Shown here piece by piece: positions 12,501 through 51,686 of a stretch of 64,000 nucleotides of DNA. The stretch covers positions 19,484 to 83,483 of IMG/VR virus record IMGVR_UViG_3300013104_000004; one strand, 5' to 3'. The position numbers were made by a program, and so were the translations under genes. How positions within the stretch are numbered: position 1 is the stretch's first letter; every line of letters starts with the position of its first letter. This DNA is from a virus. The notes under the pieces are model-generated. The model made no database searches and was not told the origin of the DNA. It saw only the letters and a program-made list of their open reading frames with translations.

Positions 12501-13247
12501 TCAGCCCGCCTGGAACGCCACGCGCAGCATGTTCAGCGCCTCGGCGCGCGTCTTGCGGATGCGCGACGGCGCCACGCCGAACTCGCGTGCTACCTCGCCC
12601 AGGCCGCGGTTGTGGAAGTACAGCTGGGCCATCACGGCCTGGTGCTCGTCAGGCAGGTCCACGATGCGCGAGGCGACCCGCTCGGCTACCGCGTAGGCGT
12701 CGGCCGCCTCGTCCGTGCGGTCCCCACCGTCGAGGGCCTCCAGGCCGTGGTCCTGCTCGTCACCCGCCTGCCCGGTCGAGCCGATGGGGATCTGCTGGCG
12801 CAGGTGCACGAGCTCGTCGACGTCGACACCGAGCTTCGCGGCCACCTCGGAGCGCGTGGGGGCCCGGCCAAGGTCCTGGGCGAGCTCATCCTCGACAGCG
12901 TGCTGCTCCTTCAGCCGGCGCCACGTCAGGCGGCTGGCCCAGGAGGTGGCCGGGGACTTCAGGCCGTCGAGGATGGCGCCACGGATGCGCATGCTGGCGT
13001 ACGACATGAAGTGCTTGTGCAGGGCGCCGTCGGACTGCTCGATATCGAACCGGCCGACAGCCTCCAGCAGGCCCTGCGCGGCCCACGAAATGAGGTCGTC
13101 GCGCTCAACATGGTCAGGCACCCGCTTGTCGTACGCGATCTTCTTCGCAAGCCAGAAGTAGCCCGCTACGAGTTCGTCGCGCGCGCGCAGATCACCGTCG
13201 TTGCTGCGGCGCCACAGGGCGTCGAGGTTCTCCAGGTCCAGGGTCAC
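12501..13247 (-). CDS. WhiG/FliA-type (group 3) RNA polymerase sigma factor
   Basis: 248 residues from GTG at 13247. Region 2 is clear: DELVAGYFWLAKKIAY, ERDDLISWAAQGLLEAVGRFD, then HFMSYASMRIRGAILDGLKS, the RIRGAI core typical of sigma-28/WhiG/SigF proteins. An intervening segment resembles region 3 (RAPTRSEVAAKLGVDVDEL), and region 4 carries the HTH LGEVAREFGVAPSRIRKTRAEAL. Expected to direct RNA polymerase to phage promoters, probably late genes. It is translated coupled to the 13244 gene upstream. Its target promoters are not identified here. Confidence 0.85.
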   Translation of the reverse strand: MTLDLENLDALWRRSNDGDLRARDELVAGYFWLAKKIAYDKRVPDHVERDDLISWAAQGLLEAVGRFDIEQSDGALHKHFMSYASMRIRGAILDGLKSPATSWASRLTWRRLKEQHAVEDELAQDLGRAPTRSEVAAKLGVDVDELVHLRQQIPIGSTGQAGDEQDHGLEALDGGDRTDEAADAYAVAERVASRIVDLPDEHQAVMAQLYFHNRGLGEVAREFGVAPSRIRKTRAEALNMLRVAFQAG

Positions 13248-26553: not shown

Positions 26554-27378
26554 ATGGCCAACGTCGCATCTGGCGTCGCGCTGAGCTTCGGGCTCATCAC
26601 CGCGTCCGTGTCCATCCAGGCAGCCCTGGAGGCCAAGGCCAAGACGGGCAACGTCATGGTCTGCGACACCGGACACCCGCCGCACCAGATCCGCGCACCC
26701 CGCGTGTGTGACGAGTGCAACGGCGAGGTGCCCTACCAGCAGCTGAAGAAGGCACGGCCCGTCGACGGCGGGCTCGTGGTCCTGGAACGGGAGGAGATCG
26801 AGCAGGCGTCCGTCGACGCCACGAAGTTCAAGAAGAAGGCCGGTGTCACCGCGCACCCGGTCGAGCAGGTCCAGGTCCACACCGCGACCGGCGAGAAGAT
26901 GTACTACCTCACGCCCGACAAGGGCCACGAGGACGGGTACACGACGCTCCTGGCCCTGGTGCTGAACCACCCGGAGCTCGCGTTCGTCACGCAGTGGACG
27001 CCGCGCACCGCGCTGGGCCAGTTCCAGCTGATCGTCCACGACGGCGTGCTCGCCTTCCAGGAGCGCACCGAGTCAGCCGGTTCCGTCCGGCCGGCGCCCG
27101 TGCTCGACCTCACGGTGAACGACGCCCTGGTCGGGCTCGCTGAGCAGGTGCTGGCGATGCCCGCGTCTGTCAGCGACTACGACCCGGCGACGTACCGGGA
27201 CGGCTACGAGGACCGCCTGGCCGCGATCATCGCGGGCAAGGAGGTCGTGGCTGCCACGACGACGAGCGCCACACCCATCGCGCCCGCGTCCGACCTGATG
27301 GAGAAGCTCCGCGCCCAGGTCGCCGCGGCGGCCCCGGCGCCGAAGCGGCGGGCCACGAGGAAGAAGGTGGCCGCATGA
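26554..27378 (+). CDS. ku: Phage Ku-like DNA-end-binding protein
   Basis: 274 residues; ATG after GAGAGGAGTGACC. Prokaryotic Ku features: the start (SGVALSFGLITASVSIQAA) matches the xGxIxFGLVxIPV opening, VCDECNGEVPYQQLKKA matches the R(V)CxxCG-E-V segment, DGGLVVLEREEIE matches the YVxxxDEEL part, KMYYLTPDKG and the C-terminal DYDPATYRDGYEDRLAAIIAGK match the conserved Ku core. Ku dimers encircle broken DNA ends and recruit a ligase in non-homologous end joining. Ku genes are known in a few mycobacteriophages, where they help join cos ends. The basic tail KRRATRKKVAA is typical. A ligase follows two genes on. Confidence 0.85.
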   Translation: MANVASGVALSFGLITASVSIQAALEAKAKTGNVMVCDTGHPPHQIRAPRVCDECNGEVPYQQLKKARPVDGGLVVLEREEIEQASVDATKFKKKAGVTAHPVEQVQVHTATGEKMYYLTPDKGHEDGYTTLLALVLNHPELAFVTQWTPRTALGQFQLIVHDGVLAFQERTESAGSVRPAPVLDLTVNDALVGLAEQVLAMPASVSDYDPATYRDGYEDRLAAIIAGKEVVAATTTSATPIAPASDLMEKLRAQVAAAAPAPKRRATRKKVAA

Positions 27379-27708: not shown

Positions 27709-28608
27709 GTGATCCCCATCCAACCGATGCTCGCCTCGCCCAGCAGCGGAGCGAGCAACCGAAGACCGCTCGACCTCGGCCACCTCGCCACCGCCGGTGG
27801 CTGGGTCGCAGAGGAGAAGCTGGACGGCATCCGAGCCATCGTCGAGTCCGACGGTGGCTCGACTCGTATCTGGAACCGGAGCGGCGTCGACATCAGCGAC
27901 CGCTTCCCTGAGATCGCCCGGCAGCGGCTGCTCCCCGTCGTGCTCGACGGGGAGATCGTCGCGACGGACGGCCTCTTCCAGACCGTCGCCACGCGCGACA
28001 AGCAGACGAGCGGGTACGGGGCGGCCGCGCGCCGCAACCCGTGCCGCTTCGTCGCGTTCGACCTGCTCGCCTCGCACGACGAGCCCCTGACGCACCTGCC
28101 CTACAAGATGCGCCGCCAGCTGCTGCGCGGCGTGTGCGGCAACCGGCGCACGGTGCGCCCGGTGCGGCAGTCGGGGAACATCCTCGCCCTCTGGGACGAG
28201 GTGCTGACTGCCGGCGGCGAGGGCGTCATCTGCAAGCAGCTGAACTCGGTCTACCTGCCCGGCGCCCGCGCCAGCTCGTGGGTCAAGTTCAAGGCCGTGC
28301 AGCGCCTGACGGCAGTCGCCGTCGGGTACGAGCACGGGCTCAACCGCGACTTCGGAGCGATCCGGCTCGCGCTCATCGGCAACGACGGTCCGATCCCCAT
28401 CGGGAAGGTCGGCACCGGCTGGAAGGAGAAGCACGGCAAGCAGATGCAGGCGCGCCTCGACGCCCAGGAGATCTTCCTGGTGGAGATCGAGGCCCTGAAC
28501 CGCACTGCCGACAACGCGCTGCGCTTCCCGGTCTTCCGGGGCGAGCGCACAGACCTGGACCTGACCGCGGCCAGCGCCGACCAGCTCGCGCTGCTGCCCA
28601 TCTACTGA
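27709..28608 (+). CDS. ATP-dependent DNA ligase (LigD/LigC-type core)
   Basis: 299 residues from GTG. Nucleotidyltransferase motifs: I EEKLDGIR with catalytic Lys37, Ia/III RSG (57-59) and DGEIV (80-84), IIIa VAFDLL (115-120), IV EGVICK (171-176), V WVKFK (191-195); an OB-fold region follows (GAIRLALIGNDGPIPIGKVG). Seals nicks or broken ends using ATP. Its size fits the short ligases that act with Ku in bacterial end joining. With Ku at 26554 it forms a compact two-protein end-joining set; no polymerase or primase domain is attached. Confidence 0.88.
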   Translation: MIPIQPMLASPSSGASNRRPLDLGHLATAGGWVAEEKLDGIRAIVESDGGSTRIWNRSGVDISDRFPEIARQRLLPVVLDGEIVATDGLFQTVATRDKQTSGYGAAARRNPCRFVAFDLLASHDEPLTHLPYKMRRQLLRGVCGNRRTVRPVRQSGNILALWDEVLTAGGEGVICKQLNSVYLPGARASSWVKFKAVQRLTAVAVGYEHGLNRDFGAIRLALIGNDGPIPIGKVGTGWKEKHGKQMQARLDAQEIFLVEIEALNRTADNALRFPVFRGERTDLDLTAASADQLALLPIY

Positions 28609-29377: not shown

Positions 29378-29472
29378 ACGCGAGCAAGCCGGCCTTCGAG
29401 AGCGCCAACGAGCGCTTCGTCGCCAAGAACATCAACCCCCAGCCCAAGCGGAAGGACCCCAAGAACCCATGA
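29374..29472 (+). CDS. Small basic protein before MoxR gene
   Basis: 32 residues from GTG (VNASKPAFESANERFVAKNI...), basic Lys/Pro-rich end. Its TGA overlaps the ATG of the AAA+ gene. May mainly couple translation. Confidence 0.5.
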   Translation: MNASKPAFESANERFVAKNINPQPKRKDPKNP

Positions 29473-30623
29473 GCACCCTGCACACCGACTTCGCCGCCGT
29501 CCAGGCGGAGCTGAACGCCGAGTTCCCCGAGCGTCGCGACGCGGTCGAGGTCCTGACCCTCGCGCTCCTGACGGGGCAGCACTCGTTCCTGCTGGGCCCT
29601 CCCGGCACCGGCAAGTCCAAGCTCGCCCGCCGCTTCGTCGAGCACTTCCCGGGCGCGCGCTACTTCGAGACGCTGCTCTCGAAGAACCGCCCCGACGCCG
29701 CGGTGCTCGGCCCGTACGACATGGCCAAGCTGCGCGAGGAGAGCGCGTTCGTCCGCAAGGACGAGGGCTACCTCACGTCGGTGGACGTCTCGTTCATCGA
29801 CGAGATCGGCAAGATGTCCCCGACGTCGGGCCACGACATCCTGGCCGCGCTGAACGAGCGCATCAAGCACGAGGTCAGCAACGGTCGCTCCGCGCACCGG
29901 ATCCCGCTGCACTCGGTCATCACGGCGAGCAACGAGCTGCCGGCGGCCGAGTCCGAGGACGCCGCCGCGATGTGGGACCGGCTGCTGTTCCGCACCACGG
30001 TCGACTACATCGTCGGCAACACCGACTTCCAGACGATGCTGTCGGCCGTCGACGGCCCCATCGGCACGACGATCCCCTGGCCGCAGGTGCTGTACGTGGC
30101 CGAGGAGGTCCGGGACGTGAAGCTCACGACCGAGACGCTCGACGCCGTGGTCGCGCTGCGCGACACCTTCCGGCAGGAGGGCCTGTCCGTCAGCGACCGC
30201 CGCTGGCGGGACTCGATGGCCGCGGTCCGCGCCACCGCGTGGCTGCGCGGGTCGGACTCCACCGAGCCCGACGACCTCTACGCCCTGCGCTTCACGCACT
30301 GGGACAACGTCGAGACCATCGGCAAGGTCGCCCGCATCATCCTCGGGCTGATCTCCCCGGAGAACGAGGAGATCGCGACGCTGGCTGACGACGCCGCGGC
30401 GCTGGAGGCCGAGCTGGAGTCTCGCAAGGGCGAGGCGCGCGAGAAGATCAGGGCGTTCCTGGTCGAGGCCGGCGGGAAGAAGACGCAGGCGCAGGAGCAC
30501 ATCGTGGCGCTGCGCACGAAGGTCACCGCGCCCCGCCAGCTGGCCGAGCTCGACCGGCTCAACGAGCGCCTCGACGCCTTCCTGGCGCGCGGCAAGAGGC
30601 TCGCGGGCCTGGACAAGCTCTGA
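29469..30623 (+). CDS. MoxR-family (RavA-like) AAA+ ATPase
   Basis: 384 residues. Walker A GPPGTGKS (43-50), Walker B SFIDEIG (108-114), sensor-1 TASNELP with N155, arginine fingers in DRLLFRT (170-176) and sensor-2 DRRWRD (about 244-249). The spacing FETLLSKNRPDAAVLGPYD between Walker A and B is MoxR-like. The C-terminal 90 residues are a coiled coil. MoxR ATPases work with VWA proteins as chaperones that insert metals or remodel complexes. A VWA gene lies one gene downstream, the RavA-ViaA/MoxR-VWA arrangement. Confidence 0.85.
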   Translation: MSTLHTDFAAVQAELNAEFPERRDAVEVLTLALLTGQHSFLLGPPGTGKSKLARRFVEHFPGARYFETLLSKNRPDAAVLGPYDMAKLREESAFVRKDEGYLTSVDVSFIDEIGKMSPTSGHDILAALNERIKHEVSNGRSAHRIPLHSVITASNELPAAESEDAAAMWDRLLFRTTVDYIVGNTDFQTMLSAVDGPIGTTIPWPQVLYVAEEVRDVKLTTETLDAVVALRDTFRQEGLSVSDRRWRDSMAAVRATAWLRGSDSTEPDDLYALRFTHWDNVETIGKVARIILGLISPENEEIATLADDAAALEAELESRKGEAREKIRAFLVEAGGKKTQAQEHIVALRTKVTAPRQLAELDRLNERLDAFLARGKRLAGLDKL

Positions 30624-30862
30624 TGGCCGGGCGTTCGTTCATCCCCTTCGAGGCCATGACCGACGCACAGCAGGTCGAGCACCTTGTCGTGGCGCACGCC
30701 CTCGACGCGGAGTATTTCGACGACGGCCGCGACCCGCGCGCGTACTTCGCCGGGCTCACGGCCAGGGAGCGCGTCGCGTACTGGCACGACGCCGACCACG
30801 TCGAGGACCCCGAGGTGCTCGGCGACAGGCTCCGTCACGACCACGACAAGGAGGTGCGTTGA
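30623..30862 (+). CDS. Unknown small protein between MoxR and VWA genes
   Basis: 79 residues, acidic and His-containing (WHDADHVEDPEVLGDRLRHD). Starts on the TGATG junction and leads straight into the VWA gene. Could be a third component of the ATPase-VWA set. Confidence 0.6.
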   Translation: MAGRSFIPFEAMTDAQQVEHLVVAHALDAEYFDDGRDPRAYFAGLTARERVAYWHDADHVEDPEVLGDRLRHDHDKEVR

Positions 30863-32325
30863 TGTTCGGCTGGAGCGATGAGGAGGAGCACGACGACGCC
30901 GTCCCGCACGACCGCTTCGACCAGATGTCGTGGAACGGCATGCGCATGGAGTCCATCTCGATCGACGAGATGGTCAACGAGCTGTCCGTGAAGTACGACC
31001 ACGTCGAGGACTTCGCGCAGGACGTCTACTCGCTCCTGGCCAAGGGCGACCCGCGCGTGCGGGAGCCCGAGGAGATGAGCCTGTCGCACGTCCCGCTGCG
31101 CCAGGTCACCGACGAACTGCAGGACCTCACTGAGCTGAAGCGGCTCCGCACCTGGACCGTCGGCGACCCGTTCAACGCGGCCCTCGCCCTCGGATCCATG
31201 AAGGAGGCGCTGCAGGGCTCGCTCGAACGGGCAGCCCAGCTGAAGGGGCAGGCCGAGGCAGCGCAGGCCGCCAGAGACGCCGCACGACAGGCCGCGCAGG
31301 AGGCGGCTGACAACCCCGGAGATCCCGGGGCCGGCGAGGCCGCAGAGCAGGCGTCGGCAGCCGCCCAGGCCGCCGCTGACCACCTGCAGGCAGGTGCCGA
31401 GCAGCAGGCAGCCGAGGGCGCCCAGGCCATGCGCAAGGCCGTGAAGGACGCGCGCGAGGAGGTCGAGGAGGTCAACGAGTCGGCCGCCTCGTACGGCCTG
31501 GAGCCGGGGGAGTTCCAGCGCATGCCGGCCAAGGAGCGGTTCGCTCTGGCGCGCCGGCTGCAGTCCGAGAAGCTGCGGAAGTTCGCAGCGCTCATCGGGC
31601 AGTTCCGCCAGCTGGCGGCCGCCGAGTGGCGCCGCCGGTACAACGACGGCTCCGACGAACAGGTCGGTATCAAGCTCGGTGACGACCTCACCAGGCTCAC
31701 CGGCCAGGAGCTCATCAACATGGCCACACCCGAGCTGGAGGACGACTTCTGGCGCCGGTTCGTGGACAAGGAGCTGTGGGTCAAGGAGCTGCGGGGACGC
31801 GAGCGGGTCGGCAAGGGCCCGATCATCGTGGTCGCTGACGAGTCCGGCTCGATGGCCGACGAGGGCGAGCTCTGGGCCAAGGGCCTGGCGCTCGCGCTGC
31901 TCGACCAGGCGGGCCGCGGCAAGCGGGACTTCCACTACATCGGGTTCGCATCGGGCCCGCTGCGGGAGTTCTCGTTCCCCGGCGGGAAGGCCGACGTCGA
32001 CAAGGTCATCGAGATGGCCGAGGGCTTCCTCAACGGCGGCACGGACTTCGCGCGGCCGTTGCGGCGGGCGCTCGACCTGGCCATCGCCGCCGGCAAGGAA
32101 CGCCCCGACATCGTCTTCATCACCGACGGCGTCGCGGGCTCGCTCCCGTTCCTCGAAGAGTGGCGCCAGGTGCGCCACGAGCTCTCCATCCGCTGCTACG
32201 GGATCTTCGTCGCGACCGGCGGGTACGGCCTCCCTAGCGAGGTGCTCGAAGAGATCGCCGACGACGTCCGCACCATCGCGGACGTCACCAACACGTCGCA
32301 GGTCGCGGACATCCTCCGCGGCTGA
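30862..32325 (+). CDS. VWA-domain protein, partner of MoxR ATPase
   Basis: 487 residues. C-terminal von Willebrand A domain with a complete MIDAS: D326-x-S328-x-S330 (DESGSM), T394 in NGGTDF and D422 in ITDG. N-terminal part is helical with a long Ala/Gln-rich coiled coil (about 118-205) and the GEFQRMPAKERFALARRL stretch that resembles ViaA/CoxE proteins. MIDAS binds a divalent metal and contacts partner proteins. Encoded with a MoxR ATPase it likely forms a phage-encoded remodelling machine; target unknown. Confidence 0.82.
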   Translation: MFGWSDEEEHDDAVPHDRFDQMSWNGMRMESISIDEMVNELSVKYDHVEDFAQDVYSLLAKGDPRVREPEEMSLSHVPLRQVTDELQDLTELKRLRTWTVGDPFNAALALGSMKEALQGSLERAAQLKGQAEAAQAARDAARQAAQEAADNPGDPGAGEAAEQASAAAQAAADHLQAGAEQQAAEGAQAMRKAVKDAREEVEEVNESAASYGLEPGEFQRMPAKERFALARRLQSEKLRKFAALIGQFRQLAAAEWRRRYNDGSDEQVGIKLGDDLTRLTGQELINMATPELEDDFWRRFVDKELWVKELRGRERVGKGPIIVVADESGSMADEGELWAKGLALALLDQAGRGKRDFHYIGFASGPLREFSFPGGKADVDKVIEMAEGFLNGGTDFARPLRRALDLAIAAGKERPDIVFITDGVAGSLPFLEEWRQVRHELSIRCYGIFVATGGYGLPSEVLEEIADDVRTIADVTNTSQVADILRG

Positions 32326-32337
32326 CACCACGCCCAC

Positions 32338-32370
32338 GAAGGGGGCTGCCCATACCGGGTGGCCCCCTTC
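32338..32370 (+). terminator. Hairpin after VWA gene
   Basis: GAAGGGGGC (32338-32346) pairs with GCCCCCTTC (32362-32370); a weak T-run (TTCGTCAT) follows. Probably an intrinsic terminator separating the MoxR-VWA unit from the 32394 operon, which has its own GAAAGGAAC ribosome site. Confidence 0.75.
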
Positions 32371-32393
32371 GTCATACCCCCGAAAGGAACCTC

Positions 32394-33371
32394 GTGACCA
32401 CGCTCTCCGACTACGTCGACGGCGCAGGCGACCTGCCCCTGCTCGGCACGATCTGCATCAACACGACCTACGACGGCAGCTACGAGGTCGAGCTCGTCCA
32501 GGAGGTCTTCCAGGCCGAGGGGCTCGACACGAGCTTCATCCCGTCGCCGTCCGGCGCGAAGGACGCGTTCTCGAAGGCGATCACCAACCACAAGGAGACC
32601 AGCTACGTCCTGAGCAACGGGCACAAGGTCTCGATCATGCTCCGCGAGATGGACTCGTCGAACCCCACCGAGTACGCGGTGCGCGCGCTGGTGCGCGAGG
32701 AGCGCTCGACCAACGGCGAGTCGCTCTTCTACGACAACATCGGGGAGATCAAGCACTACCACGGCGTGCGCCGCGGAGCCGGCCGCCAGGTCGACGACAC
32801 CGCCGCCCGCCTCTACTGGGGGCTGGCCGCGAACAGCGACACCCTGGCCCTGTCCGACGAGGAGCGCGCGAAGATCCGCAACGTCGCCATCCGCGTCCAC
32901 AACGACTACCAGCGCTACCGCAGTTCGCTCGACGGCAAGAAGGTCCGGGCCATGGTCACGAGCTACCTGCGCCACCTCGACGCCATCAAGCTGAAGGACT
33001 CGGTCTACTTCGTCCCCGTCGCACACAGCGAGTCCGTCCGCGCGCTGCGCGTCGCCGTCTCCCACTTCGGCGAGTGCACGCTCGACGGCATCCCGCTCGT
33101 CGACTTCCAGGACCAGCGAGACCTCATCATCCGCACGTTCCAGGCCGATACCGACGACGCCATGAGCACGCTCGCTGGCCAGCTGCAGCAGGCGCGCGCC
33201 AACCCGTCCGCCGCCACATACGAGAGACTGCGCAAGCAGTACGACGAGCTCACCACCCGCACCCGCACCTACACCAGCACGCTCGGCGATTCCGTCGCCA
33301 AGACGACTGGCTCTCACGAGATCGTGAAGGCCGCGCTCGTCGCCCTCCAGACGGAACTGCTGGGCGGATGA
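32394..33371 (+). CDS. Unknown protein, possibly DUF6744-type
   Basis: 325 residues from GTG. LLGTICINTTYDGSYEVELVQEVFQAEGLDTSFIP, then KEAITNHK-like helices and a late coiled coil (TLAGQLQQARANPSAATYERLRKQYDEL). I recall a family of such proteins beside AAA/VWA genes in phages, but the match is not certain. The context suggests it belongs with the ATPase cluster. No catalytic motif clear. Confidence 0.65.
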   Translation: MTTLSDYVDGAGDLPLLGTICINTTYDGSYEVELVQEVFQAEGLDTSFIPSPSGAKDAFSKAITNHKETSYVLSNGHKVSIMLREMDSSNPTEYAVRALVREERSTNGESLFYDNIGEIKHYHGVRRGAGRQVDDTAARLYWGLAANSDTLALSDEERAKIRNVAIRVHNDYQRYRSSLDGKKVRAMVTSYLRHLDAIKLKDSVYFVPVAHSESVRALRVAVSHFGECTLDGIPLVDFQDQRDLIIRTFQADTDDAMSTLAGQLQQARANPSAATYERLRKQYDELTTRTRTYTSTLGDSVAKTTGSHEIVKAALVALQTELLGG

Positions 33372-33385
33372 GAAGGGGATCCGAC

Positions 33386-33883
33386 ATGACCAACCACCGC
33401 GCCTCCGCCGCCGTCCAGGACGTCCTGGATGCGGCCGCCATGCTCGGCCTCGCGTTCTCCAACGTGAAGCCCGGCACCCGCCTCGCCGCCCTGCGAGACA
33501 GCCTCAGCGGGCTGCAGCAGAAGCTCTCCCGCGTCGAGGCGATCCTCGCGATGGACGAGGACATCCGGCTGACCTTCGACGAGGGCACCGAGTTCACCAG
33601 CGACGAGCTGCGCGAGCTGTCCGAGCTGGAGAAGGCGGTCGCGTTCTCGCTGCCCGACAAGCTCCCCGGGCAGATCGACGCGCGCGTGCTCGACGGCCGC
33701 GTCATCGCCGGCCAGCTGCAGCAGGCGCTCGACGGGCGTCGCATCGACATCGTCTGGGACTCCACGGCGCGTGTCGGGCACGTCAACATCGGCCCGCTGC
33801 TGGCCGACCTCGTCGAGCAGATCGACCCCCACGGTGAGGACGTCCCCGGCTTCTGGGCCGACGACGAGGAGGACGAGGCGTGA
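33386..33883 (+). CDS. Unknown acidic protein
   Basis: 165 residues; ATG after AGAAGGGGATCC. Helical first part (LAALRDSLSGLQQKLSRVEA), acidic end (DVPGFWADDEEDEA). Unknown. Stop overlaps the following GTG. Confidence 0.65.
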   Translation: MTNHRASAAVQDVLDAAAMLGLAFSNVKPGTRLAALRDSLSGLQQKLSRVEAILAMDEDIRLTFDEGTEFTSDELRELSELEKAVAFSLPDKLPGQIDARVLDGRVIAGQLQQALDGRRIDIVWDSTARVGHVNIGPLLADLVEQIDPHGEDVPGFWADDEEDEA

Positions 33884-34029
33884 CGCTCGAAGATGCCGTC
33901 GAGGCCCTCCGGGAGCGAGGCTTCGGCTACGACCGGCTTGACCAGCTCGCCTGGGACTTCCTCGCGGAGGAGTGCGACGGCCCGACCCGTACCGCCTTCA
34001 TCGACTTCCTGCTGCGCGCCGACGCCTGA
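33880..34029 (+). CDS. Unknown small protein
   Basis: 49 residues from GTG (VTLEDAVEALRERGFGYDRL...). Acidic and helical. Too short for a family call. Confidence 0.55.
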   Translation: MTLEDAVEALRERGFGYDRLDQLAWDFLAEECDGPTRTAFIDFLLRADA

Positions 34030-34067
34030 CGTCGCGCGCCCCCCCTACTGAACGGAGACCACACCGC

Positions 34068-35096
34068 ATGAACACCCGAGCCGTGATCGAGAAGCGACTG
34101 CAGTCCATGCCTGGCCCGAAGAGCGGCGAGAAGCTCTTCGAGGGCACCACCTACCCCCGCGAGTGGGACGAGTACGTCGGTCAGGACGAGGCCAAGCGCT
34201 ACCTGCGCGCGTCGTGCGTCTCCGCCAAGATGCGCCAGGAGCGCCTGGAGCACGTGCTCATCGCGACCGGCCACGCCGGCATCGGCAAGACCGCGATCGC
34301 GAAGCTCACGGCCGCCGAGATGGGCGTCGGGATGGTCGAGGTCCAGGGCTCGATCTCCGAGGCCGAGGCGCTGCGGATCTTCGCCAGCATGAGCGACGGC
34401 GACATCCTCTTCTGGGACGAGATCCACCAGGCCGTCGCCGGCGGCAAGGCCAAGGCCGAGTGGCTACTGCCCGTGCTGCAGGACGGCGTGATGATCTCCA
34501 GCCGCGGCGTCACCCCGATCCCCGACATCACCATCGTCGGGGCCACCACCGACATCCAGAAGCTGCCCGAGACGATCATCGATCGGTTCGTCGTCAAGCC
34601 CGCCATGGAGGAGTACACGGACGAGCAGGCGCTGACCATCGCGCAGGTCACCTCGAAGAAGATCTTCCGCGGCCTGCAGCTCCCGTTGCCCGACGAGCAC
34701 ACGTGCGCCGTCGTGGCCCGCGCGGCCAACAACAACCCCCGCTCGATCACCGCGCTGATGCGCACGCTGCGCGACTCCGCCCTGTCGGAGAACGCCATCG
34801 TCACCCCCGCGGGCCTCTACTCCACGGACGCGATGTTCCGCTGGACCGGCATCACGCCGGACGGCCTGGACAAGCTCGCGCAGGACTACCTGGAGGTGCT
34901 GCACGTCCAGTTCTCTGGCAAGGGCGGCGAGAAGTCCATCGCGGCCGCGCTGGGCGAGCCGACGCCCCCGCGCCACACCGAGAAGCTCCTCATCCGCAAG
35001 GGCTTCATGCGCATCATGCCTGGCGGCCGCGAGCTGACCGCCGAGGGCATGGACCGCGCCCACCAGGTCCTCGTCGACCGCGGCTACGACATCTGA
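34068..35096 (+). CDS. RuvB-like Holliday-junction AAA+ ATPase
   Basis: 342 residues; ATG after GGAGACCACACCGC. Follows RuvB layout: EYVGQDEAKRYLRASCVSAK (38-57), Walker A GHAGIGKT (68-75), Walker B ILFWDEIH (113-120), VLQDGVMISS matching the RuvB MEDG region, sensor-1 VGATT (157-161), arginine finger in IDRF (171-174), sensor-2 NNPRSI (about 229-234), and a C-terminal winged helix ending LIRKGFMRIMPGGRELT. RuvB drives branch migration with RuvA; no RuvA-like gene is visible, but a RuvC-like resolvase is at 43014. May use a different adaptor or serve as a loader. Confidence 0.82.
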   Translation: MNTRAVIEKRLQSMPGPKSGEKLFEGTTYPREWDEYVGQDEAKRYLRASCVSAKMRQERLEHVLIATGHAGIGKTAIAKLTAAEMGVGMVEVQGSISEAEALRIFASMSDGDILFWDEIHQAVAGGKAKAEWLLPVLQDGVMISSRGVTPIPDITIVGATTDIQKLPETIIDRFVVKPAMEEYTDEQALTIAQVTSKKIFRGLQLPLPDEHTCAVVARAANNNPRSITALMRTLRDSALSENAIVTPAGLYSTDAMFRWTGITPDGLDKLAQDYLEVLHVQFSGKGGEKSIAAALGEPTPPRHTEKLLIRKGFMRIMPGGRELTAEGMDRAHQVLVDRGYDI

Positions 35097-42712: not shown

Positions 42713-43017
42713 CACGCACTCACTTTCTGGCCGGTCCTGAACTGGAGCCGGAGCCCGTTGATGTAGCCCTGCCGCTGCTTCGCCGGGAGCCGCGCGCGGT
42801 CTCCCTCCGTCATGCCGCCCCAGACCCCCTGGGCCTCCTCGTGGTTCACGAGGGACTCCAGGAGGCAGGACTGGACGAAGGGGCAGCGCGCGCGGCACAC
42901 GGCCGCCGCCTGTGCCTGTCGCGCGGCGTTCGGGTCGTGCCACAGCTCCGGGTCGTTCTGGCAGACCTGCGAGCCGTCGGTCTGCGCGATCCACTCCCAG
43001 TCGTGGTCGCGCCTCAC
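42712..43017 (-). CDS. whiB: WhiB-family Fe-S regulator
   Basis: 101 residues from GTG. C19, C41, C45 and C51 (VCQND ... VCRARCPFVQSCL) bind the Fe-S cluster; the usual CxxC is here C-x3-C, slightly odd. The G-V-W-G-G turn (GVWGGMTEGDRARL) is diagnostic and the C-terminus is basic. Wbl proteins bind sigma factor region 4 and act as redox-sensitive regulators; phage versions can shut off host WhiB2 or alter exclusion. Confidence 0.88.
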   Translation of the reverse strand: MRRDHDWEWIAQTDGSQVCQNDPELWHDPNAARQAQAAAVCRARCPFVQSCLLESLVNHEEAQGVWGGMTEGDRARLPAKQRQGYINGLRLQFRTGQKVSA

Positions 43018-43595
43018 GCCGTAGGCCACGTGACGCCCCCCATCGCCTGGAGGTTCACCTGGGGGAGCGAAGCCTCCAGCGGGACGTCGTACTGCCGAGC
43101 GCCCATGGCCGCGATGACGAGCGCGTCCGCGACGTCGTTGCCCGTCACGTCGGCGTCGATGTAGCGGCGGATCACCGCGGCCAGGACCTCGTCCTTCTGC
43201 GAGTTGCCCTTGCCGGTCGCGTACTTCATGCGGCCACCAGGGGTGACGACGTAGAACGGCACGCCCCACTGCCACAGCTGGTGCGTGATGATGCCCCAGA
43301 GGCCGAAGATCTGGACGACCGACGAGCCCTTCGCGCCCATGGCCGTGCCCTCGATGCCGACGATCAGGTCGGCCGGCGCGCCCTCGTCCGCGCATGCCGA
43401 GGACGTCGGCTCGTAGCCCATCTCGTGGCCGCGGCGACCGCCCCAGATCGCCCGCTCGATCTCGTCGAGGATGTTCTGGACGCGCTGCGCGCCCACCTGC
43501 TTCGAGCGCACCCGCTTCGTCTCCACGACCCGCCCCCCCTCCACCAGCACGAGGCCGGTGGAGGTGAGGCTCGGGTCGATCCCGAGGACGCGCAT
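43014..43595 (-). CDS. RuvC-like Holliday-junction resolvase
   Basis: 193 residues from ATG at 43595. Acidic active-site set: D7 in VLGIDPS, E82 in VGIEGT and D154/D157 in GNDVADAL, in the RNase H-fold order of RuvC. KYATGKGNSQKDEV is also RuvC-like (ATGxGxAxKxqV). Resolves recombination or replication branches before packaging. Pairs logically with the RuvB-like ATPase at 34068. Confidence 0.85.
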   Translation of the reverse strand: MRVLGIDPSLTSTGLVLVEGGRVVETKRVRSKQVGAQRVQNILDEIERAIWGGRRGHEMGYEPTSSACADEGAPADLIVGIEGTAMGAKGSSVVQIFGLWGIITHQLWQWGVPFYVVTPGGRMKYATGKGNSQKDEVLAAVIRRYIDADVTGNDVADALVIAAMGARQYDVPLEASLPQVNLQAMGGVTWPTA

Positions 43596-46335: not shown

Positions 46336-46904
46336 GGCGGCACCTCCTCGTCGCTGGACTCGATGGCGGCGACCGAGCCGGTCGTCAGCTCGTTCAGCGC
46401 GCCCGTCCGGTACAGGTCGATCAGCTGGGCCTTGCCCTCGGTGGTGATGCGCGTCTGGAAGCCCGTCGGGTGGCCGGCCGGCGTGTACTGCACGCCCTCG
46501 ACGACCAGCCCGCTCTGGGTGTCGACGATCACGCCCGCCTCGGCGTCGAACTCGCAGCGCTTCAGCAGCGCGGCGCGCGCCGACGGGATGACCGAGTAGA
46601 TGGTCTGCTCGGCCGTGGCCGGGATGACGGTCTCCTTGACCATGCGGGGCGCGTACTCGCGCGCCCAGTCCAGGAACACCGCGTCGTCGGCGACGTCGTA
46701 GGACGCCGTGCCGCCGGTCAGCGTGATCGTGCCGACCTTCGTGCGGTCCGGCAGGAGCACGTCGTAGTTGCGCTGGCCCTCCTCGGCGTAGCGCTCGAAC
46801 AGGACGCTCTCGTGCTTCTCGCGCTCGCCCTTCAGCTCCTCGGCGATCGCGCCGGCGAGCGTGCTCAGCAGGCTGAAGCGCAGGTTGTCGTCGCGCAGCG
46901 TCAT
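46323..46904 (-). CDS. Unknown protein downstream of primase-helicase
   Basis: 193 residues. First half is helical with ALLSTLAGAIAEELKGEREK-type spacing, then VLLPDRTKVGTITLTGGTAS and a C-terminal region. Similar-sized proteins follow primase genes in actinophages. Function unknown. Confidence 0.65.
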   Translation of the reverse strand: MTLRDDNLRFSLLSTLAGAIAEELKGEREKHESVLFERYAEEGQRNYDVLLPDRTKVGTITLTGGTASYDVADDAVFLDWAREYAPRMVKETVIPATAEQTIYSVIPSARAALLKRCEFDAEAGVIVDTQSGLVVEGVQYTPAGHPTGFQTRITTEGKAQLIDLYRTGALNELTTGSVAAIESSDEEVPPWES

Positions 46905-48865
46905 GCCGCACCTCCCTTCTCCCAGGGCGCGAGCTCGCCCTGCAGCTTGGCGAGCGCCCTCTGGCGGTCGCGGTTGTAGATGTCCTCGTAGCTCTCGCCG
47001 CGGTTGTAGGCGCCGTTCTCGATCTCCACCCGGTGCCGGTTCTTCGCGTGCACCTGGTCGACGATCGCGAGCGAGGCGTGCGACATCGCGAGCTGGACCG
47101 TGCGGCCCTTGTTGCCGTGGCGGGACTTCAAGATCCGCAGGGAGAGGTCGGTGTGGACCTGTCCGCGGGTGCCCTGGTCGGCGGTCGCGGCCTCCCATGG
47201 CCGCCAGATGCCGAACAGGAAGTCGGCCGTCTCCTCGATGGCACCGGCGTCGCGCGCGTCGTCCTCGGAGATCGGCTCACCGGGCTTCGCGCCGCGGTTG
47301 ACCTGGCCAGGAGCGATGACCGCGAGCTGGTGGTCCTTCGCCCGCTCCTTCAGGCTCATCACCGCGTTCGTGACCTTCTCGTACTGGTCCTTGCCGCGCT
47401 GGGCCCGGGCGTAGTAGCCGAGGTAGTCGACGTGGCAGATCCGCGGAGACTCGCCCTGGTCCTCGATGAACTCCTCGACGAGGGTGTCAAAGTCCTCGTT
47501 GCGGACGGCGTTCTGGTCGACGAGCCGGACGTTGCTGAACAGGCCCTGCAGCTCGCGGTCGTCCATCTCCGGGTGGTGGAAGCGGGCGATGCGGCGCAGG
47601 CGGTTCCAGGTCTCCGGCGCCGTCAGCTCCAGGGTGATGAGCATCTGGGGGATGTGGCGCGTGTACCAGAGGATGTTGGCCAGGAACACCGACTTGCCGA
47701 CGCCGGTGCGGGCCAACGGGATGGTCAGCGAGCCGGGGCGTAGGCCGGGCGTGATGAGCGCGTCCAGGCTCGGGAAGCCGAGCTTCAGGGCAGGTGCTGA
47801 GTGCTCCAGCTCGTACAGCTGGGCAGCCGCCTCCTGCATCGTGTAGACGCGCTTGTCCCGCATGTCCGCGTCGTGGATCAGCCGCATGACGTCGGCCCAG
47901 CCGTGACCGCCGTGGGGCCGGTTGGGGCTCACCGGCGCCAGCCAGTCCGTCCAATCCAGCTCCGCCTCGGGCAGCTCGATGAGCCGCGCCTTGGCGCCGA
48001 GCAGGTCGCGCACCTTCAGCGCGCCGCGGCGGCCGGCGTCGTCCGTGTCGAAGCCGATGTAGACCCGCCGGGCGTCCTCGAACATCCGGGCGAAGCCGTC
48101 GGTGCCGCCGGGCAGCGACTGCGTCCCGGGCACAGCCACCACGGCGATGTTCCGGGCGCGCGTCTCGGGCGCGGCGGACAGCACCTGGCGCAGGATCAGC
48201 GCGTCGAACTCGCCCTCGGTGATGAAGACGGTCTCGGCGCCGCGCAGCACGTCGGCGTTGTAGAGCCGGACCTGCTCGCCGGGAGGTGTGATGTACTTCC
48301 CGGCCAGGTCCTTGCCGCGCACCTGGACCGTGCGGCCGCCCTCGATGTACGGGATGGTGACCCGGTTCTCCAGGAACTCCTGCCCGCGCTCGTTGAGCAG
48401 GCCCGTCTCCCGCACCTCAGCGCGGGTGTAGCCGCCCTGCACGCCGACGGACTCCATCGAGTCGACCAGCGAGACGTTCTTCGCGTGGTAGCCAATGCCG
48501 GCCGCCGCCACCGTGTCGTCCGTCAGGCCCCGCTCGCGCAGGTACTCCGCAACCTTCGGGTTGGCGCTGAGGGCACGTGCCGACAGTGCCGCGTACTCGT
48601 CGAGGATCGCCGTCTTGCGGCTCGGCTTGAAGACCGGGCTGGCGTCGTCCGGCTCGTCGCCGAAGTGCTCCAGCAGCATCCGCCACCCACCGGTGACGCC
48701 GCAGATCTTGCAGTCGAACGCGCCGTGCTCGGCGCTGACGTACATCTTCCCCTTGCGGTGATCCTCCCCACAGAACAGGCACTTCAGCGTGAGCTGGCGA
48801 CCTCCGGCGGCACGGAACACCTCCAGCCCCTTGCCCCGGAGGTAGGCCTCGACGTTCTCCTGCAT
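46901..48865 (-). CDS. Primase-helicase (T7 gp4-like)
   Basis: 654 residues. N-terminal zinc site C29-x2-C32 and C52-x2-C55 (KCLFCGE...CKICG), TOPRIM catalytic E217 (ITEGEFDAL) and D273/D275 (GFDTDDAG), a linker, then a DnaB-type RecA core with Walker A ARTGVGKS (385-392), Walker B-like CHVDYLGYY and late VNRGAKPGEPI. Makes primers and unwinds DNA at the fork. Central gene of the leftward replication operon. Two motif sites lie inside (48568 plus; about 47800 minus). Confidence 0.9.
   Translation of the reverse strand: MQENVEAYLRGKGLEVFRAAGGRQLTLKCLFCGEDHRKGKMYVSAEHGAFDCKICGVTGGWRMLLEHFGDEPDDASPVFKPSRKTAILDEYAALSARALSANPKVAEYLRERGLTDDTVAAAGIGYHAKNVSLVDSMESVGVQGGYTRAEVRETGLLNERGQEFLENRVTIPYIEGGRTVQVRGKDLAGKYITPPGEQVRLYNADVLRGAETVFITEGEFDALILRQVLSAAPETRARNIAVVAVPGTQSLPGGTDGFARMFEDARRVYIGFDTDDAGRRGALKVRDLLGAKARLIELPEAELDWTDWLAPVSPNRPHGGHGWADVMRLIHDADMRDKRVYTMQEAAAQLYELEHSAPALKLGFPSLDALITPGLRPGSLTIPLARTGVGKSVFLANILWYTRHIPQMLITLELTAPETWNRLRRIARFHHPEMDDRELQGLFSNVRLVDQNAVRNEDFDTLVEEFIEDQGESPRICHVDYLGYYARAQRGKDQYEKVTNAVMSLKERAKDHQLAVIAPGQVNRGAKPGEPISEDDARDAGAIEETADFLFGIWRPWEAATADQGTRGQVHTDLSLRILKSRHGNKGRTVQLAMSHASLAIVDQVHAKNRHRVEIENGAYNRGESYEDIYNRDRQRALAKLQGELAPWEKGGAA
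48568..48590 (+). repeat. Dispersed motif copy inside primase-helicase gene
   Basis: TGAGGGCACGTGCCGACAGT in plus orientation, against the direction of the gene. One of the best matches outside intergenic regions. Confidence 0.5.
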
Positions 48866-50543: not shown

Positions 50544-51686
50544 TCAGGCGGAGAGCGCGCCCTGGCGCTGCTTCACCAGGGCGGAGTGCTCGGGCGTCCA
50601 CGCGGCCTTGTGCTGCTGCCACAGGACCTTGAAGTCCGCCGGGTCCGTGACGGCCTCGATGGCCTGGACGATCGGGTCGCCGTCGGCGATGACCTCGCCG
50701 CCGAGCGTCTCGGTGACCGTGGCGACGGCCGCCTCGGTCGGGTCGGCTGCGGGGGCCGGCTCGGCAGCCTCCGCGGGCTTGGCCTTGGCCGCGGGCTTGG
50801 CCTTGGCGGCCGCGCCCTTCTGGGCACGTGCCTTCGGCAGCGCGGAGGCGTCCGGCTCGACCGGCCCGCCCTTCATGTCGGCGGGGGCGGCCTTCTGCTC
50901 CACCTCGGTCTTGACCTGGGTCACGACCGCGGCCTTGGCGCCGATGGCCTGCGCCCCGGCGCGGAAGGCCCGCTCCAGCACGGCGAAGTCCTCGGTCGTG
51001 AACGCCACCGGGGTCTGGGCCGGCAGCAGCGCGGACGTCGACCGCAGGAACGGCACGTGCGGCGTCGCGCGCCACTCGATGCCGCGCTTCACGACCTTCG
51101 TGTCCGTGCCGTCGACGTTCTCGACGCCCCACTCGGTGCGCAGCCAGCCGATGTTCGAGAACTCCTTCAGGAGGTCCGTCTTCATGCCGCCGACGAGGTC
51201 GGGCTCCAGCCCGTCGGAGTCGAACTTGTCCTTCGTGTGCACCAGGACGACGACGTTCATGTCGAGGTTGTGCAGGCGGTGCAGGAGCTTGGCCATGATC
51301 GAGCCGAGCTCGCCCCACTGGCGGAAGTCGTCGAGGCTGTTCAGGCCCTCGCGCTTCAAGATCTCCTGCACGACGTGCTTCTGGAGCACGGAGAACGTGT
51401 CGAGCACGACGGTCTCGCGGTCGAAGCTCGGGCGCTTCGACTCCTTCTCCAGGTAGTCGACAGCCTCCAGCGCGCTCTTCTCGCCGCGGATCTCGATGTA
51501 CGGCGTCTGGGTGATGACCAGCGAGTCCGGGCCTGAGCGGTCCGCCATCAGGAAGATCGGGCTGGGGAACTGCGCGGCCCACGGCGTCTTGCCGGCGCCC
51601 GGGGTGCCGAAGAGCAGGAAGCGGTGCTTCGCCTTGCCCTCGTCGGCGAGCAGGGCGTCGAGCCCCGCGGTCTTGATCTCGATCAT
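50544..51686 (-). CDS. RecA-fold (Sak4-like) recombination ATPase
   Basis: 380 residues from ATG at 51686. Walker A GTPGAGKT (27-34), Walker B TVVLDTF (92-98), later VVVLVHTKDKFD. The C-terminal third is a Lys/Ala/Pro-rich linker (KARAQKGAAAKAKPAAKAKP) with a small helical end. Phage Sak4 proteins anneal or pair ssDNA with an SSB. Neighbours (SSB-like at 50022, Cas4-like nuclease at 52768) support a recombination module. Confidence 0.8.
   Translation of the reverse strand: MIEIKTAGLDALLADEGKAKHRFLLFGTPGAGKTPWAAQFPSPIFLMADRSGPDSLVITQTPYIEIRGEKSALEAVDYLEKESKRPSFDRETVVLDTFSVLQKHVVQEILKREGLNSLDDFRQWGELGSIMAKLLHRLHNLDMNVVVLVHTKDKFDSDGLEPDLVGGMKTDLLKEFSNIGWLRTEWGVENVDGTDTKVVKRGIEWRATPHVPFLRSTSALLPAQTPVAFTTEDFAVLERAFRAGAQAIGAKAAVVTQVKTEVEQKAAPADMKGGPVEPDASALPKARAQKGAAAKAKPAAKAKPAEAAEPAPAADPTEAAVATVTETLGGEVIADGDPIVQAIEAVTDPADFKVLWQQHKAAWTPEHSALVKQRQGALSA

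Follow-up and report, generated by a model that had tools for sequence, protein, structure and literature searches.

What does a MoxR-type AAA+ ATPase encoded beside a VWA protein do in a virus, and with which partners? The question is raised by a 64-kb stretch of DNA (hereafter the window) within the 83,483-base virus record IMGVR_UViG_3300013104_000004, an 83.5-kb phage contig. On the plus strand of the window, at positions 29469-35096, the gene for a MoxR ATPase is followed in turn by an open reading frame (ORF) of 79 amino acids (aa), the genes for VWA, DUF6744, and 165-aa proteins, a 49-aa ORF, and the gene for a RuvB-like ATPase. An original prediction, made from the sequence alone, grouped the MoxR-VWA pair with the RuvB-like ATPase and suggested, among other roles, an assembly or defence machine. 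Our comparisons show that the conserved unit is the trio MoxR-VWA-DUF6744, without the RuvB-like ATPase or the 79-aa linker. This trio is not phage-specific: it is found in diverse phages, plasmids, and integrated loci.

The recurrence of the MoxR-VWA pair in other phages had been set beforehand as a point on which the original prediction would stand or fall. We searched viral contigs with a VWA profile built from the window, the related phage IMGVR_UViG_3300020138_000006, and Moorella phage MTATph1; profiles were needed because scans with single proteins gave no match (P0002) or one contig (P0001). The profile retrieved 36 viral contigs, each with a MoxR ORF near its VWA gene. Several 'phage' matches from tblastn resemble host DNA and were left out of the count, namely those to Salmonella and Escherichia coli records naming ViaA or RavA and probably those to Campylobacter. 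Of the 35 VWA-bearing viral records tested, 20 match the curated DUF6744 model, against none of the 14 control genomes. A hidden Markov model (HMM) of the window DUF6744 protein and one relative alone already finds most of the nearby DUF6744 genes; on viral contigs, narrow DUF6744 profiles recovered only close relatives, and a genome scan with one of them found none. The genes of the trio are co-directional in 28 out of 28 loci, in the orders MoxR-VWA-DUF6744 (14 loci), DUF6744-MoxR-VWA (11), MoxR-DUF6744-VWA (2), and VWA-MoxR-DUF6744 (1). Because linkage was kept through repeated re-ordering, it seems to have been re-formed rather than inherited as one frozen block, suggesting a functional tie. 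The genes may also lie further apart: an IMG/VR record of 218,948 bp (L033) carries all three, with DUF6744 8.5 kb from the VWA gene.

The association extends to plasmids. Among 72,556 plasmid records, a DUF6744 query from a Bacillota locus matched 14 and the window VWA protein matched 58. Each of the 14 also belongs to the 58, its VWA gene being within a few kb of DUF6744 (Fisher test, 8e-45, treating records as independent although several Nocardia plasmids are related). RefSeq names these plasmid genes 'DUF6744 family protein'. Plasmids with the trio come from Nocardia, Streptomyces, Brevibacillus, Alicyclobacillus, and Rubrobacter, and on pNF1 (Nocardia), NBC_00239 (Streptomyces), and pAZOBL1 (Brevibacillus) its genes are adjacent or one gene apart. 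The trio is present in bacterial genomes too. Genomes found via the VWA profile alone encode DUF6744 in 25 of 47 cases, against 16 of 794 evenly drawn genomes (12/398 Bacillota and 4/396 Actinomycetota); the Fisher value for this comparison, 7e-26, was computed with 26 instead of 25 of the 47. We also made the reverse test on 13 DUF6744-positive genomes that had not been found via VWA: seven have MoxR and VWA within 10 kb, and in a further three a VWA match lies elsewhere, beside a DUF6744 fragment at a contig end in one case (G812).

The assignment of the third protein had been given as possible and is now certain: the window protein matches DUF6744 (PF20529) at 73.5 bits, for a cut-off of 27, over positions 20-299 of 314. 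Sequences of this family diverge fast (14-38% identity). The AlphaFold model (mean predicted local distance difference test score of 86.7) combines an antiparallel sheet domain with a small alpha/beta part and, at the C-terminus, a long helical hairpin. We drew no function from its structural matches, which comprise a CorA coiled-coil likeness confined to the helical region (Z 9.8 over 93 residues) and middling matches to HAT1 and YugN. Comparison with viral models gave a match to a protein of the haloarchaeal virus HVTV-1 (E 9e-19). HVTV-1 gp25 (L104:9815-10966), which has the same length as this structural match and is listed as hypothetical, is a DUF6744 member by sequence profile (4e-31). 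We found no paper on DUF6744 or on the MoxR-VWA-DUF6744 trio in the literature searched, which held few subscription papers or preprints.

The HMM check proposed for the other two proteins gives Pfam bpMoxR (5e-33) followed by AAA_lid_8 (1e-11) in the MoxR protein, the same domain pair as in E. coli RavA, and VWA_2 (3e-8) in the VWA protein. The Walker A (K49/S50), Walker B (D111/E112), sensor-1 (N155), arginine-finger (R171), and sensor-2 (R244/R245) residues of the ATPase are retained in essentially all 34 alignable relatives. The predicted RavA-like ATPase with full Walker, sensor, and arginine-finger motifs is thus borne out by Pfam and by the alignment. The metal ion-dependent adhesion site (MIDAS) of the VWA protein had been predicted correctly to the residue (D326, S328, S330, T394, D422) and is near-invariant among relatives. 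As in a ViaA-like partner, the VWA domain with its complete MIDAS is at the C-terminal end and the MoxR gene adjoins. Among the structures matched by the VWA model are NorD, as part of NorQD complexes, and the MIDAS domain of Rea1.

We built a FastTree phylogeny of 83 MoxR cores and, because it was midpoint-rooted, claim no direction of transfer from it. The window falls in an entirely DUF6744-positive group (support 0.971) that also contains six phage contigs, one Pseudonocardiaceae locus, and the plasmids of Nocardia and Streptomyces. E. coli RavA is placed elsewhere, weakly. Eleven DUF6744-negative viral contigs form a single clade (0.978). In these putatively viral IMG/VR contigs (L016, L017, L019, L022, L028-L032, L036, L043), the MoxR and VWA genes are adjacent and the terminase is weak or not found. 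Another phage without DUF6744, Aphanizomenon phage CL131, encodes gp148 (L109:758-1600) directly upstream of MoxR-VWA. This protein could be an alternative third component; as a DUF6744 candidate it was rejected by Pfam.

Known MoxR-VWA machines (RavA-ViaA, NorQ-NorD, CbbQ-CbbO, Rea1) consist of an ATP-driven hexameric ring and a VWA co-factor, the MIDAS of which grips an acidic ligand. By analogy, the MoxR protein would form such a ring, the VWA protein would dock on it, and the MIDAS-bound metal would grip an acidic residue of a partner. DUF6744 may be the dedicated third protein, either as the client or as an adaptor bringing the client, and ATP turnover would remodel or release the client complex. 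We regard a mobile-element-borne ternary AAA+ remodelling module made of MoxR, VWA, and DUF6744 as somewhat better than an even bet. The trio probably serves mobile DNA generally as a means of remodelling some protein complex, rather than taking part in virus assembly. More tentatively, the client might belong to the replication, repair, or recombination of the element's DNA, given the genes that recur next to the trio: ligase, RuvB, single-stranded DNA-binding protein (SSB), SNF2 helicase, polymerase III alpha, primase, RadC, ParB, and Ku.

Several observations weigh against this remodelling module. DUF6744 is not detectable in 15 of the 35 MoxR-VWA viral records, 11 of which are in one clade, and 3 of the 13 genomes of the reverse test lack a matching VWA. 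CobS-type PHROG matches in these three genomes are generic AAA matches and are uninformative. The haloarchaeal viruses HVTV-1 and HCTV-1 carry DUF6744 with a CobS/CobT-type AAA-VWA pair in place of the RavA type, and three other phages with a CobS-like ATPase have no DUF6744. DUF6744 could partner more than one kind of AAA-VWA pair, or this could be a coincidence within one virus family. The flanks of the trio on Nocardia and Streptomyces plasmids mostly encode conjugation or metabolic functions, and the counts of neighbouring genes (ligase in 8 loci; RuvB, SNF2 helicase, and SSB in 6 each; polymerase III alpha, primase, RadC, and Ku in 4 each) are raw, without a background of phage gene content. 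No solved structural relative of the DUF6744 model found by Foldseek or VIA-align points to a function. Finally, the trio is supported by association, co-direction, and residue conservation, and physical interaction between its members is putative.

Among the alternatives, the one that survives best, to which we nevertheless give a rather small weight, is a conflict system: superinfection exclusion or anti-defence on mobile elements, similar to VMAP/iSTAND, with DUF6744 as the third component. Those systems, as published (PMC7159879), likewise join a chaperone and VWA pair to a distinct, conserved third protein, and their ATPase is of the Pfam bpMoxR family. Carriage by phages and plasmids fits this explanation, and so does the fast divergence of DUF6744. 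However, the variable-effector pattern by which they are defined was not seen, Pfam finding no effector domain on the window VWA protein. The trio differs from them also in its third protein, DUF6744, and in its carriage by phages and plasmids. Pfam scans of the window proteins P0002 and P0003 showed no VMAP/iSTAND third-protein or effector domain, the VMAP/iSTAND profiles themselves not being compared directly. The defence role first suggested obtained no positive support from PADLOC, which gave no notable match; its matches to the MoxR and RuvB-like proteins are weak AAA cross-matches.

A virion assembly chaperone is improbable. This role was proposed for the MoxR-VWA pairs of the two-tailed archaeal virus p618 and of jumbo phage group 2.2 (PMC7824862), and many tailed phages carry the trio. 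A GroES (Cpn10) gene is also found within about 10 kb of it in four large phages (L018, L021, L024, and L046, e.g., L046:15884-16192). Yet the trio is carried by plasmids, such as the mobilizable Nocardia pNF1, where it is beside a type IV secretion coupling gene, and this makes the assembly machine of the original prediction unlikely. In the window, the trio is far from the head and packaging genes. The MoxR pair of Bacillus phage 0305phi8-36 is among non-structural genes (PMC2147016).

Just as improbable is a captured host RavA-ViaA that keeps its host role (respiratory complexes, membrane, lysine decarboxylase). Among solved structures, RavA is nearest to the MoxR protein (5e-39), the two are 32% identical over the AAA core, and the best NCBIfam matches of the MoxR and VWA proteins are RavA and ViaA, respectively. 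The E. coli genes are also adjacent, with the same Walker, sensor, and arginine-finger residues in the ATPase and, in the VWA protein, a MIDAS with a conserved stretch just before it. However, the MoxR protein scores 152.4 bits for a RavA equivalog cut-off of 681, and the VWA protein 68.8 bits, over its C-terminal part only, for a ViaA cut-off of 500. E. coli RavA has a LARA domain and a RavA C-terminal domain, which the MoxR protein and two phage relatives lack. Hence, the core is RavA-ViaA-like without being RavA-ViaA: the predicted likeness is real by sequence and stops short of either family. Moreover, the window system is carried by phages and plasmids, is linked to DUF6744, which the E. 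coli control genome lacks, and has a MoxR that groups with element-borne genes and not with E. coli RavA.

The second AAA+ ATPase had been correctly typed, with RuvB_N (7e-21) and RuvB_C (1e-6) domains in Pfam and RuvB as its closest solved structures. It scores 127 bits with TIGR00635 (cut-off 299) and 139 bits with PRK00080 (cut-off 282), and is RuvB-like, not an orthologous RuvB. Its start is likely the ATG at 34068 rather than the mechanically assigned 33972. The grouping first proposed implied a four-part machine in which this ATPase would add branch migration remodelling. It follows the trio in the window and its close relatives, is near the trio in two more phages, and the same phage encodes a RuvC-like resolvase. 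Most of the trio neighbourhoods retrieved nevertheless lack RuvB, which is seen beside the trio in the window and few other loci. This leaves the four-part machine with little probability, and the conserved third partner is DUF6744, which the original prediction had set apart beyond the terminator. Least probable of all is a helper of metal chelation or cofactor insertion (CobS/CobT- or NorQ/NorD-like, e.g., for a cobalamin-dependent ribonucleotide reductase). Tailed viruses do carry CobST, proposed to boost cobalamin (PMC8651126), and a ribonucleotide reductase gene is near DUF6744 in the Moorella phage and HVTV-1. The ATPase, however, is of RavA type (bpMoxR and AAA_lid_8) and not CobS, with no phrog_249 match at E 1, and the genes examined in this region include no recognisable large chelatase subunit or reductase.

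The features of the locus are listed in Table 1. The phage is tailed, with a recognisable terminase, major head protein, tyrosine integrase, primase/helicase, Sak4-like annealing protein, and RuvC-like resolvase. The related phage IMGVR_UViG_3300020138_000006 (80.9 kb) has the same order of Ku, ligase, MoxR, VWA, DUF6744, small ORF, and RuvB-like genes, and because this order recurs between proteins that are only 34-58% identical, the clustering is not random. The 79-residue gene placed between MoxR and VWA by the original prediction exists, with starts and stops overlapping those of its neighbours. It is not conserved: we found no homologue, and it is missing from this nearest relative. The terminator announced after the VWA gene is a strong hairpin (folding free energy -38.8, z -3.8) that lacks a T-run. 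The Ku homologue and the LigD-like ligase, a possible end-joining pair, are retained in close relatives. The phage also encodes an RNA polymerase sigma factor at 12501-13247 on the minus strand (PHROG 351, 2e-21), which has a homologue in the related phage.

Table 1. Features of the MoxR-VWA-DUF6744 locus and other genes of the window.
Feature	Position	Strand	Length	Remark
MoxR AAA+ ATPase	29469..30623	+	384 aa	RavA-type core (bpMoxR + AAA_lid_8)
Linker ORF	30623..30862	+	79 aa	Non-conserved
ViaA-type VWA protein	30862..32325	+	487 aa	N-terminal helical region, C-terminal VWA with intact MIDAS
RNA hairpin	32338..32370	+	14-bp stem	3' of VWA gene; terminator-like without T-run
DUF6744 protein	32394..33371	+		Third conserved trio component; GTG start
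165-aa protein	33386..33883	+	165 aa	Weakly similar ORF at equivalent place in two relatives (E 0.02, 0.08)
RuvB-like AAA+ ATPase	34068..35096	+		RuvB_N + RuvB_C; local neighbour, outside conserved trio
Ku homologue	26554..27378	+		Upstream neighbour retained in close relatives
LigD-like ATP-dependent DNA ligase	27709..28608	+		Upstream neighbour; in 8 trio neighbourhoods including the window
RuvC-like resolvase	43014-43595	-
Fused primase/helicase	46901-48865	-
Sak4-like annealing protein	50544-51686	-

Comparison with known systems shows what is new. A MoxR protein and a second subunit (orf66, orf63) were noted in 2007 in Bacillus phage 0305phi8-36, a large phage with a MoxR-type pair; a third gene goes unmentioned in the part of that account available to us (PMC2147016). 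Tailed viruses such as HVTV-1 and Gordonia phage Chidiebere encode CobS/CobT-type AAA and VWA pairs, joined by DUF6744 in HVTV-1 and HCTV-1, but their ATPase is of the AAA_5 type without bpMoxR, and the HVTV-1 VWA protein is much larger and has an acidic linker. The same logic is seen in the trio of the plasmid pCAR1, formed by three adjacent genes (AAA, DUF3150, and a NorD-like VWA; L182:18203-22341) on conjugative elements (PMC2642839). It differs by its CbbQ/NorQ-type ATPase, by the gene order AAA-DUF-VWA, and by DUF3150, which has no detectable relation to DUF6744: we tried to relate the two families, and the results were unsupportive (hmmsearch E 0.03; hhalign probability 0.3%, like control proteins). 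Genes related to the pCAR1 trio are found in R478, Rts1, SXT, and R391. In pCAR1, SSB, RecT, and a lambda-type exonuclease are encoded about 10-17 kb from the trio, with conjugation genes in the same region. The novelty is therefore a ternary MoxR-VWA system that has a new third component and is carried by mobile elements, phage MoxR-VWA pairs having been known since 2007.

The viral MoxR-VWA pairs have hitherto been explained as virion assembly or cobalamin helpers. For the RavA-type family with DUF6744, carriage by plasmids, which have no virions, argues against the former and the RavA-type ATPase against the latter. The association gives DUF6744 a testable role, as client or adaptor, and complete carriers are at hand in Nocardia pNF1, Brevibacillus pAZOBL1, and Moorella phage MTATph1. 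A broader proposal, which we advance only tentatively and hold to be rather doubtful, is that the trio is an unrecognised ternary AAA+ machine of phages and of conjugative or mobilizable plasmids. In it, DUF6744 would be the dedicated subunit that binds the client, and the complex acted on would be one of replication or recombination. Gram-negative hosts would have a counterpart of this machine in the AAA-DUF3150-VWA trio of IncP-7 plasmids and SXT/R391-type elements. If this were true, such trios would be a general accessory of large mobile DNA.

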